Source of the DNA: Cyclobacteriaceae bacterium
GTDB lineage: Bacteria; Bacteroidota; Bacteroidia; Cytophagales; Cyclobacteriaceae
Reading direction: 5' to 3'
Length of the DNA: 13,286 nt
NCBI GenBank assembly: GCA_030589835.1
Contig: JAUUZS010000046.1
Coordinates: 1-13,286, forward strand
The notes beneath the pieces were generated by a model, which worked only from the letters and a program-made list of their open reading frames with translations, was not told the origin of the DNA and searched no databases. The position numbers and the translations under genes were made by a program. This document shows positions 4,960 through 11,798 of this stretch, piece by piece; the first letter of the stretch is position 1; each line of letters begins with the position of its first letter.

Positions 4960-5784
4960 ATGCAGGAAATACATATTGTAGACATAAGGAAACTTACCGA
5001 GATCATAAAAACTAAGTATGATTATGATTTCACGAATTACGCCATTTCTTCGTTTAAGAGAAGGATATTGAGAATTTTGGAGCTTTACAAATTCAAAAGC
5101 GTTGATGCACTTGTCAAGAAGATTGGTGATGATCCGGTTTTCTTTGAAGAGTTTATCTCTGAAATTACAGTAAATGTTACCGAAATGTTTCGTGACCCTT
5201 CATTTTGGAGGATTTTACGCGACAAGGTTCTTCCAAATATTTTACTAAACCATAAAAGGGTAAGCATATGGCATGCAGGATGTTCCTCTGGAGAGGAAGT
5301 ATATTCAATGGCCATATTACTAAAAGAATTGGGCATTCTTGAAGATGCCAAAATCGTTGCCACTGACATCGATGACCAGATTCTAGAACGGGCACGTAAT
5401 GGTGTGTTTACCGCAAAAAATATGGAATTGAATGAAAAGAACTATGTAAGATTTAGAGGGGAGAATGCTTTAAATCAGTATTTCGAGGTAAAAAATGGTC
5501 TTGCATACATGGATAAGTCACTGGTCGAAGACGTCTCTTATCGTAAGCATGATCTGGTTAAAGGAATTGTATTTAGCAAATTCGATATCGTTATCTGTAG
5601 GAATGTAATGATTTATTTCAATCAAAACTTACAAAACGAGGTGCTGAAAAAACTCCATGAAAGTATTTTTAAATACGGGTATTTGGCAATCGGCTCAAAA
5701 GAGTCGCTTATTTGGTGTGAAATTGCCAACAAGTTTATTGTGGCAAACAATGAAGAGAAAATTTATAAGAAAATAAAAGAGTAG
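4960..5784 (+). CDS. cheR: CheR-type protein-glutamate O-methyltransferase
   Basis: A 274-residue CheR, a normal length. In chemotaxis it uses SAM to methylate glutamates on receptor coiled coils. Residues 1-75 form the helical N-terminal domain that contacts receptors (including FKRRILRILELYKF). The SAM methyltransferase domain follows: VNVTEMFRDPSFW (72-84), the SAM motif HAGCSSGEEVYSMAI (105-119), ATDID, and CRNVMIYFNQ. There is no C-terminal TPR or PAS extension. cheB follows after 22 bp, so the pair should be co-expressed. No chemoreceptor, CheA, CheW or CheY is encoded in the window, so the substrate is not a neighbouring classical receptor. The adjacent phosphatase receptor has a methylation-site-like helix and is my inferred candidate. 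The first ATG gives the expected family N-terminus. Confidence 0.9.
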   Translation: MQEIHIVDIRKLTEIIKTKYDYDFTNYAISSFKRRILRILELYKFKSVDALVKKIGDDPVFFEEFISEITVNVTEMFRDPSFWRILRDKVLPNILLNHKRVSIWHAGCSSGEEVYSMAILLKELGILEDAKIVATDIDDQILERARNGVFTAKNMELNEKNYVRFRGENALNQYFEVKNGLAYMDKSLVEDVSYRKHDLVKGIVFSKFDIVICRNVMIYFNQNLQNEVLKKLHESIFKYGYLAIGSKESLIWCEIANKFIVANNEEKIYKKIKE

Positions 5785-5806: not shown

Positions 5807-6400
5807 ATGAGATTTCCTGAATTAAATAATAGGTTCAAAGCTATCGTGATTGGAGGTTCGGCAGGTAGTTTTCAAGGTATAACGAAGATTCTTTCGCAAG
5901 TGCCGAAAGATTTTCCCTTACCTATTATTATGTGCTTACATAGGTTGAAACATGTGCGAAACGGATTTATTGAAGCATTGGAAATAAAAAGTATAAAAAA
6001 TGTAATTGAGCCATATGATAAAGAGTCGATCAAAAGGGGAAGTGTATATCTGGCTCCATCAAACTATCATCTTTCTATAGAGTTAGGACATTATTTTAGT
6101 TTGTCCACGGAAGAAATGATCAATAATTCCAGACCCTCAATTGATATTACCCTGGAAACGGCAGCTTTTACATATAAAAACAAATTGATAGGAATATTAT
6201 TGTCAGGAGCGAATAAAGACGGTGCAATGGGGATGAAAAAAATAAAAGACAACGGAGGATTTACGGTTGTTCAGGATCCTGTAGAATGCATGATAGATAC
6301 CATGCCCTCGGCGGCATTGAAAACAACAACCATTGACTATACGCTAAGTGTAGATCAAATAGTTAAGTTATTTTATGAAATTCATAAACAGTATAAATAA
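5807..6400 (+). CDS. cheB: CheB-type methylesterase, catalytic domain only
   Basis: A 197-residue CheB methylesterase/deamidase domain. The catalytic triad is readable: Ser18 in VIGGSAGS, His45 in MCLHR, and Asp138 in LSGANKDGAMGM. The C-terminal VQDPVECMIDTMPSAAL is the family's usual VQDP...MPxxA motif. The family reaction hydrolyses glutamate methyl esters placed by CheR. Classical CheB (about 350 residues) has an N-terminal receiver domain that gates activity by phosphorylation. That domain is entirely absent here and the gene starts directly at the esterase domain, so regulation must come from elsewhere or activity is constitutive. Stand-alone CheB domains are known in Bacteroidota. The stop lies 3 bp before the next gene, indicating an operon. 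Confidence 0.9.
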   Translation: MRFPELNNRFKAIVIGGSAGSFQGITKILSQVPKDFPLPIIMCLHRLKHVRNGFIEALEIKSIKNVIEPYDKESIKRGSVYLAPSNYHLSIELGHYFSLSTEEMINNSRPSIDITLETAAFTYKNKLIGILLSGANKDGAMGMKKIKDNGGFTVVQDPVECMIDTMPSAALKTTTIDYTLSVDQIVKLFYEIHKQYK

Positions 6401-6403
6401 TTT

Positions 6404-7246
6404 ATGAAATCTTATTATTCAAAATTAAATGTAATCATCACCGCATTCTTTGTGCTGGGAATTCTGTTTTCCACATTTAATCTGTACAACCTGCCTATAG
6501 AGCTTGAAAAAGTAAGCGGAAGAATTGATCTGACGGTAATACAGGAATTATCTTCTGTATTGAATCAAACCTATTTTATTGTGGGATTGACACTATCTCT
6601 TGGCCTGGGCGCTATCATTCTCACCTTATTCTTATTAAATTATAATAAGACTGTCGAGAAAATTATTTATGTTGATAAAACGGAGTCTCAAAAAAAGCAG
6701 GATATAAAAAGGGAATCTCAGGCCGTTAAAGACGATTTGGCCAAGCAAGTGAAGGATATTCGATCCAGTGCAGAAGATATTCAGGATATAAAATTGAAAT
6801 ACGAAAAAGTATTATCAAGCTTGTGCATGAAAATGGATGTGAGCCAGGGGCTTGTGTATTCGGTTAAAAAAGAGAAAAACAATAGATACATTGAGCTATA
6901 TGCAACCTTTGCCTATAACATTCCGGAAAGCGACACCGTGAGGTACGAATTTGGAGAGGGTCTTGCCGGTCAGGTAGCAAAAGAAGGAAAGAAAATTAAT
7001 ATAAAGGATATACCAGAAGGATACATCACCATTATTTCTGGTTTGGGAGCGTCATCACCTAATCACCTTGCCATTTTACCAATAAAGGAAAAAGGCGAAG
7101 TGGTCCAGGTTGTGGAGATAGCTTCTTTTAATGAAATATCAAGCTCTGATGAAAAACTCATTGCAGAAGTGTTGAATATGAGTGAAGTAAGCCGCGAGCC
7201 TGCGAAGAAAGCACAATCAGTGAAAAAGTCTGATGGAAAAAAATGA
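6404..7246 (+). CDS. Two-TM membrane protein with cytoplasmic GAF domain
   Basis: A 280-residue protein. Two hydrophobic helices (about 8-27 and 57-79) bracket a short extracytoplasmic loop. A charged coiled-coil-like linker (90-135) leads to a GAF domain (about 130-258), and a Lys/Ser-rich tail ends the protein. No kinase, phosphatase or other output domain is present. The GAF core, residues 181-242 (FGEGLAGQVA..., IPEGYITI, VVEIASF), aligns with the GAF of the next gene's product (506-568: FAEGLVGQAA..., IPNDYVSI, VVEFAGF). I count about 25 identities over 62 positions with a single one-residue gap, so the two domains are paralogous. It lies 3 bp after cheB and 41 bp before the phosphatase gene. 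A co-sensor or accessory subunit of the phosphatase receptor is plausible, but this is inference. Confidence 0.85.
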   Translation: MKSYYSKLNVIITAFFVLGILFSTFNLYNLPIELEKVSGRIDLTVIQELSSVLNQTYFIVGLTLSLGLGAIILTLFLLNYNKTVEKIIYVDKTESQKKQDIKRESQAVKDDLAKQVKDIRSSAEDIQDIKLKYEKVLSSLCMKMDVSQGLVYSVKKEKNNRYIELYATFAYNIPESDTVRYEFGEGLAGQVAKEGKKINIKDIPEGYITIISGLGASSPNHLAILPIKEKGEVVQVVEIASFNEISSSDEKLIAEVLNMSEVSREPAKKAQSVKKSDGKK

Positions 7247-7287: not shown

Positions 7288-10200
7288 ATGTTTAAGAATA
7301 TTAGCGTAAGAGGTAAATTAACAACCCTGATTCTTTTTCTTGTTGTTGTTACGATTTTCACTTCAGGATACATCTCGTATTCGATCAGAAAAAATATGCT
7401 CCAGGAGAAATATCTTCAAAACCTGAGAGCTCTGGCAGATGTAAAGAAAGGAAATATACAAGCCTTTATTGATGCTGCAAAAATAGATATTGACCTGATT
7501 TCAAATCTTGAGGTTTTTCAATCCGTCAATGAAAAAAAGGAAGTGATTGCAATCGAGGAATCAGACTCTACTGTCATGGACTTAAGTGATTTTATAGAAG
7601 ATGAAACGGTCGATCTGGACGAGGTAGAAAAAACCTTAAATACGATTAAAACTTCTATAGGGGCTGAGAGAATAATCATTTCTGACAATAAAGGGCAAAT
7701 CATTATTAACACCAACCCAGATGGGGCATTGAGCATAAAACAGGAGATTAATGCCACCGACAATGCATTTACCCTAGGATCTGAAAAGGGAAAGACATTT
7801 AGCAAAATTTATACTTCAGGTGACGAATTTTTTGTTGCAATAGGTGCGCCTATTGGAGACATCGGGGCCAGTAATGCGCTATGTTTTATTATTTTGAATA
7901 TAAATACTATTCATGAAGAACTGGCCCAGGATATGGGATTGGGCGAGACTGTAGAAATAATTTTAGCACAAAAACGAGAAAAGATAGCGCTATTTTTAAA
8001 TCCACTAAAATATGATGAAAACGCCGCACTCAACAGGGCGGTAACTATGGGTTCCAAAGAGGCGGTGGCTATTCAGCTTGCCGTAGAAGGAAATGAAGGA
8101 ATCGGCTATTCTGTTGATTACCGGAATATAGAAACGCTCTCTATCTGGGGCTTTATTCCAGAATTGAATTGGGGTATTGAGGTAAAAGTAGATCAGACTG
8201 AAATACACCAGCAGGCCCTGATTGTAGTAAAAAAATTCACATTATGGGGAGGCTTGATTTTGGTTTTCACGCTCCTGATTTCATTGTTGTTTTCGCAATA
8301 TTTCGTCAGTCCATTGCTCTCGCTCAAAGATTCGCTGGTTTCCGTGGCAAAAGGAGTATTGCCGGATAAAATAGATAAAAAATACAACGATGAGGTGGGC
8401 CAAATGGCCGATACCACCGATGATCTGGTTCAGGCTCTAAAACGAACAGCTACTTTTGCAGAAAAAATTGGTAAAGGTGATCTTAAAGCAGATTTCAAGC
8501 CATCAAGCAAAGGGGATATTCTTGGTAATGCCCTGATTGAAATGCGTAATAACCTGATTGAAACAGAAATACAGGATACCGAACGCAACTGGATTGTGAC
8601 CGGGGTAGCGGAAATAAGTGAGATATTACGTTCCCATGACACCATCGATGAGCTTGGAGATGCCGTCATTGCCTATATTACCGAAAAAATTGATGCCATT
8701 CAGGGTGCATTTTATATACTGAACGACAATGATGAATCTGATCAGTTCATCGAAATGAAATCGGCCTATGCCTATCATAAGAAAAAATATATGCAGGCTA
8801 AATTCAAGTTTGCTGAAGGATTAGTTGGCCAGGCTGCCGTAGAAAAGGACTATATACTAAGAACCGAAATTCCCAATGACTATGTGAGCATTACTTCAGG
8901 TATTCTTGGAGACAAAAGGCCAACAGGTATTTTAATTGCCCCGCTTATCACGGAAGAAAAAGTGTATGGTGTGGTAGAATTTGCCGGCTTCCATAGATTT
9001 AGCGAAAGCCAGATCAAATTTGTACAGGAGATCAGCTTGATACTGGCCCGTACAATATTCAACATTAAGGTTAATGAGCGTACCAGAAACCTGTTGGAGG
9101 AGTCTCAGGAGATGAGTAATGAGCTTCAGGAGCAGCAGGAGGTTTTGAGGCAGAATGCCGAAGAAATGGCGGCAACACAGGAAGAATTAAAAAGGACAAA
9201 TCAGCGGCTTGAAGATCAGATAGAAGAAGTAAACAGAACGCAAAACAGGATGCAGCTGCTGCTCGAAAATGCCTCTGAGGTAATCGCAATTTACGAGAAA
9301 GAAGGAACGATAAGATATATCAGTCCGTCAGTAGAAAAAATACTTGGCTATTCACAAAATGACCTGATCGGTATCAACGATAAAATCCATGTCGACCCGG
9401 AAGGAGTGGCAAATTTCGAGCATATATTTAAGCAAGTAATTGCCAACCCATTCGAAAGTGTTACTGTTCAGTATGAATACATCAAAAAAGATGGTGATGC
9501 CATTTGGCTGGAGGCCACAGCAACAAATATGCTTTCTGACCCTGCAATACAGGGCATAATCCTCAATAGTAGAGATATTACCGAACGCAGACGTGCTGAG
9601 CGTGAGGAAAGAATGAAGTCGAAAATGCAGGCATTATCAGAAAACTCCCCTGACTTGATCACCAGATTCACCCAGGAAGGCGAAGTTTTCTATATCAATC
9701 CAATGATTGAGAGTTATACCGGGCACAAGCCGAGTGAAATCCTCAACAAGAAACTTGACGAGATAAATGTAGCGGATGTCATTAAGCAGGGGTGGATTGA
9801 TCTTTTGAAACAAGTTGAATCAAATAATGACAAAGTTGCGATTGAAATGGATTTCCCTTCATTAATTGGCGATCGTGTAATGCAGGTAAATGCCATCCCT
9901 GAATTTGATGAGGAAGAGGTCTTGGAGTCTGTCCTGATGGTATCTCATGACATTACAGAACGGAAACAAATTGAGCTTGAAATTGAATCCAGAGGAAGAA
10001 AAATATCAGAAAGTATAAATTATGCCAAAAGGATACAGGGGGCTATCTTGCCAAATAATGAAGTAATACGACAGTTCCTGCCCGATTCCTTTATTCTTTA
10101 TAAAGCGCGGGATGTAGTAAGTGGCGATTTTCCTTGGTTTATCAACGTTGGTGATATGATGTATTTTGCAGCAGTCGATTGTACAGGACATGGAGTGCCT

Positions 10201-10755
10201 GGCGCATTGATCTCGCTGATCGGTTATTTCTTGCTCAACGACATTGTCAAAGGAAGAAAAATCAATGACCCCGGAGAGATTTTAGATCAGCTTGATAAAG
10301 GAGTAACCAGAACATTACGTCAGGATTCTGATGATTCCAAGACCAAAGACGGTATGGATATAGCGCTTTGCAAAATTGATTTGAAAAATAAAAAAGTCTC
10401 TTATGCCGGAGCACATAGGTCATTATATTTCATGAATGGGCATGAATTGGAAGAAATAAAGGGGAATAAATTCCCAATTGGTGGTGGCATTTATAAAAAC
10501 CAAACTAAATTTACCTGTTCAACAATTGATGTGAAAAAGAATGACTCTATCTTCTTCTGTTCCGATGGTTTCCCGGATCAATTCGGAGGTCCTGATAACA
10601 GAAAGTATGGCCCAAGGAGATTGCGTGAAGCCATAGTGAAGTATCATGAAAAAACAATGACTGAAATAAATCAGACAATCGATACAGAATGGACAGAATG
10701 GAAAGGCGATCAAAAGCAGACAGATGATGTCTTATTGATTGGAGTGAGGTTTTAA
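7288..10755 (+). CDS. Membrane receptor with HAMP, GAF, two PAS and PP2C/SpoIIE phosphatase domain (SiaA-like)
   Basis: A 1155-residue protein. Domain order: TM1 (10-32); extracytoplasmic Cache-like sensor (33-316); TM2 (317-337); HAMP (338-391) with a second HAMP-like unit to ~430; GAF (435-595); coiled coil (596-655); PAS1 (655-770, ending in RDITERR); PAS2 (778-895, ending in HDITERK); PP2C-type SpoIIE phosphatase (935-1155). Metal-binding acidic residues are present: Asp947 (SGDF), Asp964 (VDCTGHGVPGA), Asp1093 (CSDGFPDQFGG) and Asp1146-1147 (TDDVLL). The expected reaction is dephosphorylation of a Ser/Thr-phosphorylated switch protein, here most likely the SiaC-like protein encoded downstream. 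P. aeruginosa SiaA has the same sensor-HAMP-PP2C plan without the GAF/PAS insert. Oddity: relatives usually read SGDFYW, while this has SGDFPW (Pro949). Residues 624-634 resemble a chemoreceptor methylation site. Confidence 0.9.
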   Translation: MFKNISVRGKLTTLILFLVVVTIFTSGYISYSIRKNMLQEKYLQNLRALADVKKGNIQAFIDAAKIDIDLISNLEVFQSVNEKKEVIAIEESDSTVMDLSDFIEDETVDLDEVEKTLNTIKTSIGAERIIISDNKGQIIINTNPDGALSIKQEINATDNAFTLGSEKGKTFSKIYTSGDEFFVAIGAPIGDIGASNALCFIILNINTIHEELAQDMGLGETVEIILAQKREKIALFLNPLKYDENAALNRAVTMGSKEAVAIQLAVEGNEGIGYSVDYRNIETLSIWGFIPELNWGIEVKVDQTEIHQQALIVVKKFTLWGGLILVFTLLISLLFSQYFVSPLLSLKDSLVSVAKGVLPDKIDKKYNDEVGQMADTTDDLVQALKRTATFAEKIGKGDLKADFKPSSKGDILGNALIEMRNNLIETEIQDTERNWIVTGVAEISEILRSHDTIDELGDAVIAYITEKIDAIQGAFYILNDNDESDQFIEMKSAYAYHKKKYMQAKFKFAEGLVGQAAVEKDYILRTEIPNDYVSITSGILGDKRPTGILIAPLITEEKVYGVVEFAGFHRFSESQIKFVQEISLILARTIFNIKVNERTRNLLEESQEMSNELQEQQEVLRQNAEEMAATQEELKRTNQRLEDQIEEVNRTQNRMQLLLENASEVIAIYEKEGTIRYISPSVEKILGYSQNDLIGINDKIHVDPEGVANFEHIFKQVIANPFESVTVQYEYIKKDGDAIWLEATATNMLSDPAIQGIILNSRDITERRRAEREERMKSKMQALSENSPDLITRFTQEGEVFYINPMIESYTGHKPSEILNKKLDEINVADVIKQGWIDLLKQVESNNDKVAIEMDFPSLIGDRVMQVNAIPEFDEEEVLESVLMVSHDITERKQIELEIESRGRKISESINYAKRIQGAILPNNEVIRQFLPDSFILYKARDVVSGDFPWFINVGDMMYFAAVDCTGHGVPGALISLIGYFLLNDIVKGRKINDPGEILDQLDKGVTRTLRQDSDDSKTKDGMDIALCKIDLKNKKVSYAGAHRSLYFMNGHELEEIKGNKFPIGGGIYKNQTKFTCSTIDVKKNDSIFFCSDGFPDQFGGPDNRKYGPRRLREAIVKYHEKTMTEINQTIDTEWTEWKGDQKQTDDVLLIGVRF

Positions 10756-10859: not shown

Positions 10860-11276
10860 ATGAAATATATTTATGACATGCATCAAATGATGCTCAAGAA
10901 CAACGTTATTCTGGTGTACGAAGGGGAATTTACTCAGGAAATCACTAAATCTGTCTTGGCTATGGCCGAAAGAAACATGGACTCGGTAGGTGAAGATTCC
11001 GGAATAAAGAGAAAAGTGTTTAATGTGATGGTAGAGTGCCTCCAGAATATTGTTAAACATGGCGATGAAAAAGGTGCCGGGGAAATAAATATCAACACCG
11101 CTATATTTATGATAGGAAAACACGAGGACTCCTATATCATTACCTCTGGAAATCCCATCAAGAATGAGCATGTTGATGAACTGAAAAGCAAACTTGATGA
11201 GATCAACAGCCTGGACAAGGATGGATTAAAAGCGCTCTATAAAGACATAATTAAAGGCGGTACCGGCCTTACATAA
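10860..11276 (+). CDS. siaB: SiaB-type protein kinase, N-terminal part cut by an in-frame stop
   Basis: The frame encodes 138 residues and ends at TAA (11274-11276). The N-terminal part looks intact: KYIYDMHQMMLKNNVILVY, then KRKVFNVMVECLQNIVKHG (51-68), a GHKL-type N-box (Glu59, Asn63, Lys66, His67). The family (SiaB/DUF6272, anti-sigma-factor-like kinases) phosphorylates SiaC-type proteins. Family members are about 180 residues long and end with a Gly-rich ATP-binding box and a final strand. Those parts are missing from this product but are encoded in the same frame immediately after the stop (to 11405), so the full frame would have 181 codons. As it stands the product lacks the G-box and is probably inactive as a kinase. 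The cause may be a natural nonsense mutation or a base-call error. It sits between the PP2C receptor gene and siaC, as in Sia-type loci. Confidence 0.8.
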   Translation: MKYIYDMHQMMLKNNVILVYEGEFTQEITKSVLAMAERNMDSVGEDSGIKRKVFNVMVECLQNIVKHGDEKGAGEININTAIFMIGKHEDSYIITSGNPIKNEHVDELKSKLDEINSLDKDGLKALYKDIIKGGTGLT

Positions 11277-11405
11277 AAATGTGGTGCAGGCCTGGGATTT
11301 GTAGATATGGCAAGAAAATCAGGTCAAAAACTAGAATATGGATTTGAATCTATTGGAGAAGGTCATTCATTCTTCTCTTTAAAAACAACCGTTCCCAGAG
11401 GATAA
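11277..11405 (+). pseudogene. siaB: Detached C-terminal segment of siaB (G-box and final strand)
   Basis: Reading on in the same frame after the TAA at codon 139 gives 42 residues, KCGAGLGFVDMARKSGQK... to ...HSFFSLKTTVPRG, then TAA at 11403-11405. GAGLGF (142-147) is the Gly-rich ATP-binding box of the GHKL fold, and FFSLKTTV is the usual last strand of the family. No frameshift is needed, as the stop alone separates the two halves. Relatives typically read EKGGAGLGF where this reads *KCGAGLGF, so single G-to-T changes (GAA to TAA, GGT to TGT) six bases apart could explain both differences. That comparison is from memory of the family. Independent translation of this part is unlikely to give a stable protein. 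siaC begins 30 bp later. Confidence 0.75.
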
Positions 11406-11435: not shown

Positions 11436-11798
11436 ATGGAAATAATTAATTTAGAAGGCGCAGAAGATACTCCAAAAATAATATTGGATAAAACCAACAA
11501 AATTTTTGAAATTTCAGGGAGATCTTTACCAGAGGATTCTGCTGAGTTTTATCAGCCTGTATTAGATTGGTTGGCAGAATATGCTAAAGATCCGCTGCCA
11601 GAAACTACTTTTGATTTTAAATTAGAATACTTTAATACCGCTTCATCAAAATTAATACTTGATGTATTGACTGCTTTGGAAGATATCAGTAACACAGTCG
11701 TTCATTGGTATTTCTATGAGGATGACGAAGACATGGAAGAAGCTGGGGAGGAATTCTCAGAATTGGTAGATATTGAGTTTGAATTGAAACCATATTAA
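11436..11798 (+). CDS. siaC: SiaC-type regulatory phosphoprotein (DUF1987 family)
   Basis: A 120-residue acidic protein of the SiaC/DUF1987 family, a full-length single-domain member. Landmarks are KIFEISGRSLPEDSAEFYQPVLDWL (two helices after the first strands) and the LEYFNTASSKLILDVL segment, in which Thr68 is the predicted phosphosite. P. aeruginosa SiaC is phosphorylated by SiaB and dephosphorylated by SiaA at Thr68, and the number here is identical. The acidic YEDDEDMEEAGEEFSEL loop (94-110) is also typical. In Pseudomonas the unphosphorylated form activates the diguanylate cyclase SiaD. No cyclase gene is in view here, so the target is unknown. It follows the siaB frame by 30 bp with an A-rich leader and no clear Shine-Dalgarno sequence. 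It appears intact although its presumed kinase gene is interrupted. Confidence 0.88.
   Translation: MEIINLEGAEDTPKIILDKTNKIFEISGRSLPEDSAEFYQPVLDWLAEYAKDPLPETTFDFKLEYFNTASSKLILDVLTALEDISNTVVHWYFYEDDEDMEEAGEEFSELVDIEFELKPY

Follow-up and report, generated by a model that had tools for sequence, protein, structure and literature searches.

A GAF-linked coiled coil as a candidate substrate of CheR and CheB in a Sia-type phosphatase receptor of Cyclobacteriaceae

Reversible glutamyl methylation is the textbook form of bacterial sensory adaptation, known mainly for methyl-accepting chemotaxis proteins (MCPs) wired to CheA. On which protein, then, do the methyltransferase CheR and the methylesterase CheB act when their genes lie beside a receptor of another kind? 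The question is raised by a stretch of 13,286 nucleotides from a Cyclobacteriaceae bacterium (contig JAUUZS010000046.1 of assembly GCA_030589835.1, forward strand; hereafter the window), in which cheR and cheB lie just upstream of a Sia-type receptor gene whose product ends in a SpoIIE phosphatase domain. An earlier reading of the letters without database searches (the sequence-only reading) had pointed to a methylation-like motif in a coiled coil of this receptor and proposed that CheR and CheB act there. The motif, the long predicted helix that carries it, a conserved gene cluster, the co-occurrence of CheR with the GAF-plus-coil unit (GAF-coil), and a partial loss of the motif in two genomes that lack CheR and CheB are all observed. 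We think it somewhat probable that CheR and CheB have a substrate helix beyond the MCP family in the GAF-coil, the receptor's own included, and that they methylate non-MCP GAF-coil sensors. The parts of the window on which this turns are the following.

7288..10755, + strand: Sia-type receptor of 1155 amino acids (sensor region, HAMP, GAF, coil, PAS, PAS, coil, SpoIIE phosphatase), from the open reading frame and Pfam/NCBIfam matches
9004..9267, + strand: predicted single long helix between GAF and PAS1, receptor residues 573-660, from AlphaFold2 model mc31bd934c407 (H134-221 of the modelled piece)
9157..9189, + strand: methylation-like motif AEEMAATQEEL, residues 624-634, from its fit to a consensus (excerpts of PMC1079850) and orthologue conservation
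9163-9165 and 9184-9186, + strand: candidate sites E626 and E633, the second Glu of each Glu-Glu pair
4960..5784, + strand: cheR, protein-glutamate methyltransferase of 274 amino acids (PF01739 1.1e-44, 152.7 bits; CheR_N)
5807..6400, + strand: cheB, a methylesterase domain alone, 197 amino acids (PF01339 2.5e-47, its sole Pfam match)

In the domain scan the receptor shows a weak HAMP match, a GAF domain, two PAS domains and a C-terminal SpoIIE domain, and the Pfam scan gives no match to the MCP signalling domain PF00015; the SiaA equivalog NF038263 matches the C-terminal part only (208.7 bits, cut-off 700). The predicted helix over residues 573-660 is unbroken in the structure model of the GAF-coil-PAS1 piece, which was built from 42 sequences, with a mean predicted local distance difference test score of 86.2 and values of ~90 around the motif. 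CheR aligns to the solved CheR 5ftw at 4.4e-35 and retains the S-adenosylmethionine-binding and CRNVxIYF stretches, while CheB aligns to the solved catalytic domain 3sft at 7.4e-31 and retains the Ser, His and Asp positions; to judge from these alignments both enzymes look catalytically intact. The Pfam scan detects no receiver domain of the classical CheB type in the 197-residue protein. The scan agrees with the sequence-only reading that cheR (PF01739) and cheB (PF01339) stand upstream on the strand of the receptor and that no chemoreceptor, CheA or CheW is nearby, MCP, CheA and CheW domains being absent from the eight window proteins scanned.

The motif itself lies at residues 624-634 as that reading had it, although the start then given, 9154, is one residue early. 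The stretch E625-E626-M-A-A629-T630 matches the chemoreceptor methylation consensus in the excerpts of PMC1079850, and a second pair, E632-E633, follows one heptad further on, with no Ala-Ser/Thr after it. Read from the core leucines, E626 and E633 would both occupy heptad position c, 7 residues apart; methylation sites 297, 304 and 311 of Tsr are likewise spaced by 7 residues (PMC1079850, in excerpt). Q631 would sit at core position a, which makes methylation there unlikely. The Tsr letters in the register comparison are those of the sequence-only reading. Among 64 orthologues that are less than 80% identical, A624, E626, M627, T630, Q631, E633 and L634 do not vary at all, 63 have E625, position 632 is occupied by E in 62 and by D in the other 2, and residue 628, an X in the consensus, varies between A, E, Q and S. 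Across 108 receptors (those of the two genomes lacking CheR and CheB excluded), E or Q is found at 633 in 107 and at 626 in 99, so that the Glu/Gln identity on which the proposal depends is borne out by the alignment.

A motif of this type occurs inside an MCP too: in genome G025, a 935-residue MCP (L193) has EEMAATQEDL in a coil ~580 residues before its signalling hairpin. When the methylation helices of MCPs from these genomes were looked for, a pattern search located the hairpin in 4 of 13 MCP regions, a number too small to compare with.

What happens to the motif when the enzymes are missing? Two genomes with receptors, G282 and G344, gave no CheR or CheB matches in the genome profile search. 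The G282 receptor (L132) reads ALKMAASQEEI, having lost the first Glu-Glu pair and kept the second, and that of G344 (L125) reads TEEMKLAQASL, having lost the second pair together with the Ala-Thr and kept the first. In L132 the change is concentrated in the coil, where 8 of the 25 columns conserved in receptors from CheR-containing genomes are altered, compared with 9% elsewhere; ten receptors from CheR-containing genomes were listed with at least 6% change elsewhere, and nine of these changed 0-3 coil columns and one (L181) changed 4. The paralogues behave similarly: none of four output-less G282 paralogues has the full motif, as against 54 of 58 paralogues from CheR-containing genomes (duplicates and the receptor fragment L142 dropped, kinase-type coils left out), and when paralogues are matched for GAF score (92-124 bits) the figures are 0/4 and 24/27. 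The four G282 sequences are VEELRVTQEES (L124), QIAMEEAQQKM, LQELESAKQIA and ELRFKALQKEL, the alignment of the last being uncertain. Taken with the gene cluster, the partial motif loss in these enzyme-free relatives suggests that methylation may tune a sensor that is not a chemoreceptor.

The cluster runs cheR-cheB-GAFtm-receptor-siaB-siaC, and its remaining members in the window are these.

6404..7246, + strand: GAFtm, a small membrane protein of 280 amino acids with a C-terminal GAF (GAF_2 1.2e-07), found at this place in 72 of 80 loci
10860..11276, + strand: siaB-like kinase gene whose frame ends early (DUF6272 2.8e-29; SiaB_fam_kinase 1.1e-37, profile matched to 132 of 177)
11436..11798, + strand: siaC, partner-switch phosphoprotein of 120 amino acids (PF09345 1.8e-38)

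The SpoIIE phosphatase receptor, SiaB kinase and SiaC genes together constitute a Sia-type partner-switch gene set; no siaD was seen among the window proteins scanned. Related loci were collected by a GTDB search with the receptor alignment, and among the best 80 of 339 the order is complete in 72, cut by contig ends in 7 and rearranged in one (L073), whose cheR-cheB-GAFtm genes are found elsewhere (L099), apparently on the same contig. The nearest loci (L001-L003) come from Cytophagales/Cyclobacteriaceae metagenome genomes at 80-91% identity, and the cluster is carried by Marivirga, Fulvivirga and Chryseolinea. In G344 (L184) GAFtm, receptor, SiaB and SiaC are consecutive without cheR-cheB, ~3.7 kb upstream being covered.

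Two members of the cluster deserve a remark of their own. GAFtm has two hydrophobic stretches (read by eye) and a GAF that no coil follows, and it stands between cheB and the receptor in 72 of 72 complete loci; it might pair with the GAF of the receptor itself. The siaB-like frame, within window positions 10860-11405, stops at 11276, so that ~45 positions of the SiaB-family profile are left uncovered, and past this point another frame seems to carry on with similar sequence, through either a sequencing error or real damage; the frame is longer in most related loci.

Since most of these organisms also have chemoreceptors, with CheR in 25, MCPs in 22 and CheW in 22 of the 25 cluster-bearing genomes of a subset, the enzymes might be mere hitch-hikers in the cluster that serve the cell's MCPs. 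We regard this as extremely improbable: 72 of 80 loci have the full gene order, another CheR lies near many of the MCP genes (compared by eye), and three genomes (G001, G008 and G014) retain the cluster cheR-cheB despite having no MCP or CheW matches in the profile search, with the proviso that the genomes may be incomplete. G001 and G008 show no CheR or CheB match besides those of the cluster. A pair that is retained without any MCP needs another substrate. In G014 a standalone CheR outside the cluster (L083) adjoins a SpoIIE protein of other build, 703 amino acids long.

The association extends beyond the cluster. Both larger samples were requested at a completeness of at least 95%. In the sample of the order (154 genomes; GAF-coil E up to 1e-30, CheR E up to 1e-15), GAF-coil is found in 99 genomes and CheR in 119, with both in 97, CheR only in 22, GAF-coil only in 2 and neither in 33, that is, GAF-coil in 97/119 genomes with CheR against 2/35 without. 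The phylum sample comprised 247 genomes, 142 with CheR over the cut-off and 93 without a CheR match, and GAF-coil (1e-15) was searched in 80 of each; 60 of the 80 without CheR had been assigned by absence from the CheR match list and were then checked. Here GAF-coil is found in 31/80 and 1/80 genomes, respectively, the sole match without CheR being weak and its coil unlike (L121); both contrasts are inflated by shared ancestry, and the GAF-coil model also includes kinases adjoining cheR.

How special, then, is the motif to this receptor? The GAF-plus-coil model, A2, which includes 14 hybrid kinases adjoining cheR as rows, gives 6-26 matches per genome in 25/25 genomes, and 19 of 20 GAF-coil proteins away from cheR have EE(L/M)x(A/S)T, the exception (L114) being of kinase type; in many of these proteins the motif scan used found no output domain. 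These 19 rule out that the motif is a mark of the receptor linked to CheR and of no other protein, and close linkage is ruled out as the deciding variable, as L148, L155 and L174 keep the motif with no cheR-cheB in ~3.4 kb upstream. The co-occurrence across the order is one of CheR and GAF-coil, and the motif is not peculiar to the Sia-type receptor, being common in a large family that lies mostly away from cheR. The case built on this single sequence becomes weaker, and the hypothesis wider; the interpretation, which is partly supported, is best recast for all GAF-coil proteins.

An alternative is that CheR and CheB modify another protein of the module, either GAFtm or only output-less GAF-coil sensors or hybrid kinases, and that the receptor is coupled to it by heterodimerisation while itself unmethylated. 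The paralogues carry the motif as well as or better than the receptor (54/58), 25 of 80 loci have a GAF-type gene that ends at most 500 bases 5' of cheR, the gene cluster is retained where the receptor has altered pairs, and 14 of 20 other CheR genes (neither in the cluster nor near an MCP, picked by eye) adjoin hybrid kinases whose GAF is homologous and whose coil starts with similar heptads. Nonetheless, E626 and E633 are kept in nearly all receptors and both receptors from genomes without CheR have lost one pair, and we consider this alternative improbable.

The hybrid histidine kinases in question (at L081, L082, L085-L088, L090-L096 and L098, beside CheR with or without CheB) are a possible second group of CheR clients. 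The GAF-type gene that ends within 500 bases upstream of cheR (L012, L013, L016, L017 and L025 are among the 25 loci) often reads, where read, EEEMRQNMEELxATQEEM, with three Glu-Glu pairs at heptad spacing, and the motif scan used found no output domain in it.

Several observations weigh against CheR and CheB acting on the coil, and some of them suit another explanation, namely that the coil is a signalling helix kept for dimer packing, for phase control from GAF to PAS or for another partner, that it resembles a methylation site by chance, its heptads being rich in Glu, and that CheR and CheB act elsewhere. Heptad-preserving shuffles of the coil yield the motif in 17.5% of trials (6.3% for the motif plus a following E[EQ]), which makes the single sequence weak as evidence, and in the 64 orthologues conservation is just as high in the PAS linker and in the second coil as in the motif coil. 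Where cheR and cheB are linked to the receptor gene (92 receptors with that of the window, only identical sequences removed), residue 626 is I or V in seven, with I at 625 as well in two of these and V at 632 in two; all seven keep E633. One receptor in a genome with CheR (L071, G414) reads AKDMELAQDNL, with both pairs gone and 8 of 27 conserved coil columns changed as against 4% elsewhere, which is as strong as in L132; its genome has an operon-type CheR, and the 20 kb surrounding that gene contain no CheB, GAFtm or receptor. The motif is also partly changed in L073 and L181 with CheR present, 4 of the 58 paralogues from CheR-containing genomes are without the full motif, and G416 (L003, a 2.7 Mb genome) has the motif and no CheR match, its contig ending inside the receptor. 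On the side of the losses, there are two loss genomes only, and as the four paralogues are all from G282 we count two genomes rather than six events, the counts not being independent. Neither receptor has lost the whole motif, L132 still having the second pair and L125 the first, the paralogue L124 keeps both Glu-Glu pairs and differs only by Ala to Val, like L123 from a genome with CheR, and L125 is weaker evidence because it has diverged throughout (10/25 in the coil, 23% elsewhere, 20/41 in the GAF).

The signalling-helix explanation in turn has to accommodate the concentration of change in the coil of L132, the matched paralogues (0/4 without CheR, 24/27 with it) and the retention of CheR-CheB in the three genomes without MCP and CheW, and we judge it unlikely, though it is the alternative to be taken most seriously. 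Pairs of cheR-cheB with receptors lacking the motif, which the sequence-only reading had named as contrary evidence if frequent, amount among the 92 to seven receptors with an altered first pair, the other 85 keeping the first motif. Its central proposal, that CheR and CheB act on the receptor coil, thus stands in part: linkage in 72 of 80 loci, the MCP-free genomes, the Glu/Gln conservation and the partial losses in G282 and G344 are consistent with it, while the seven altered receptors, L071 and the presence of the motif outside the receptor are not what it would lead one to expect.

If CheR and CheB do act on the GAF-coil, we envisage the following sequence of events. On the face of the GAF-PAS1 helix that is exposed, CheR would methylate E626 and E633, the second Glu of each Glu-Glu pair, and the receiver-less CheB would remove the methyl groups. 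The methylation state would bias how the HAMP-GAF helix drives the SpoIIE phosphatase, and the shift in phosphatase activity would alter SiaC phosphorylation, resulting in adaptation of the Sia-type partner switch. Here we infer methylation itself, the residues that would carry it, the direction of its effect and the SiaC output. As CheB has no receiver domain, feedback would presumably come through substrate conformation or the amount of CheB rather than through CheA phosphorylation. The pair probably serves other GAF-coil proteins in trans as well, that is, output-less sensors and perhaps related hybrid kinases.

The proposed arrangement has parts in common with several known systems. With MCPs such as Tsr and Tar it shares the methylation consensus (PMC1079850, in excerpt) and cheR and cheB as partners, but the receptor lacks the MCP signalling hairpin and has a SpoIIE phosphatase as output, its CheB has no receiver domain, and its methylation is a prediction from sequence. 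With the SiaA/SiaB/SiaC(/SiaD) switch of Pseudomonas aeruginosa (the pathway is named in the part of PMC9239204 consulted) it shares the SpoIIE receptor, the SiaB-family kinase and SiaC; GAF, coil, two PAS domains, cheR and cheB are added here, and the SiaA model matched only C-terminally. In Myxococcus xanthus the CheR-type enzyme FrzF methylates FrzCD, at sites that follow one another at intervals of seven residues and include one off consensus (PMC2535941, in excerpt), though FrzCD is an MCP homologue that signals to a CheA-type kinase. CheR is reported to methylate PhoP of Salmonella, a non-chemoreceptor signalling protein, with R112 as the residue tied to CheR under a section heading that speaks of glutamate and arginine (PMC8546571, in excerpt); PhoP, however, is a response regulator and has no dedicated operon. 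CheR/CheB genes directly downstream of kinase genes with receiver domains have been noted, section 16 of that paper proposing no methylation (PMC5108060, in excerpt); 14 such kinases here share the GAF-coil start, whereas their coil differs after the first heptads and their output is a kinase. The titles, abstract starts and selected passages of the open-access literature that we searched contain no report in which CheR acts on a GAF coil or on a receptor of Sia type, and the consulted part of PMC3447774, on CheR-TPR fusions, has nothing on either.

We would go further only tentatively, at somewhat short of even confidence, and suggest that methyl-accepting modules come in a second class, the GAF-coil, which has no relation to the MCP hairpin, and that one CheR/CheB pair of Cytophagales serves receptors with varied outputs (SpoIIE phosphatase, none, perhaps hybrid kinases), giving adaptation without CheA, CheW or MCP in some genomes. 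The MCP-free genomes and the lineages free of CheR and CheB make the hypothesis directly testable. If it is true, the conserved coil would have a function in proteins that are named only 'PAS domain S-box protein', the gain both of output-less GAF receptors and of a partner switch driven by a phosphatase would be set by CheR and CheB, and adaptation by methylation would be an add-on module for other outputs.
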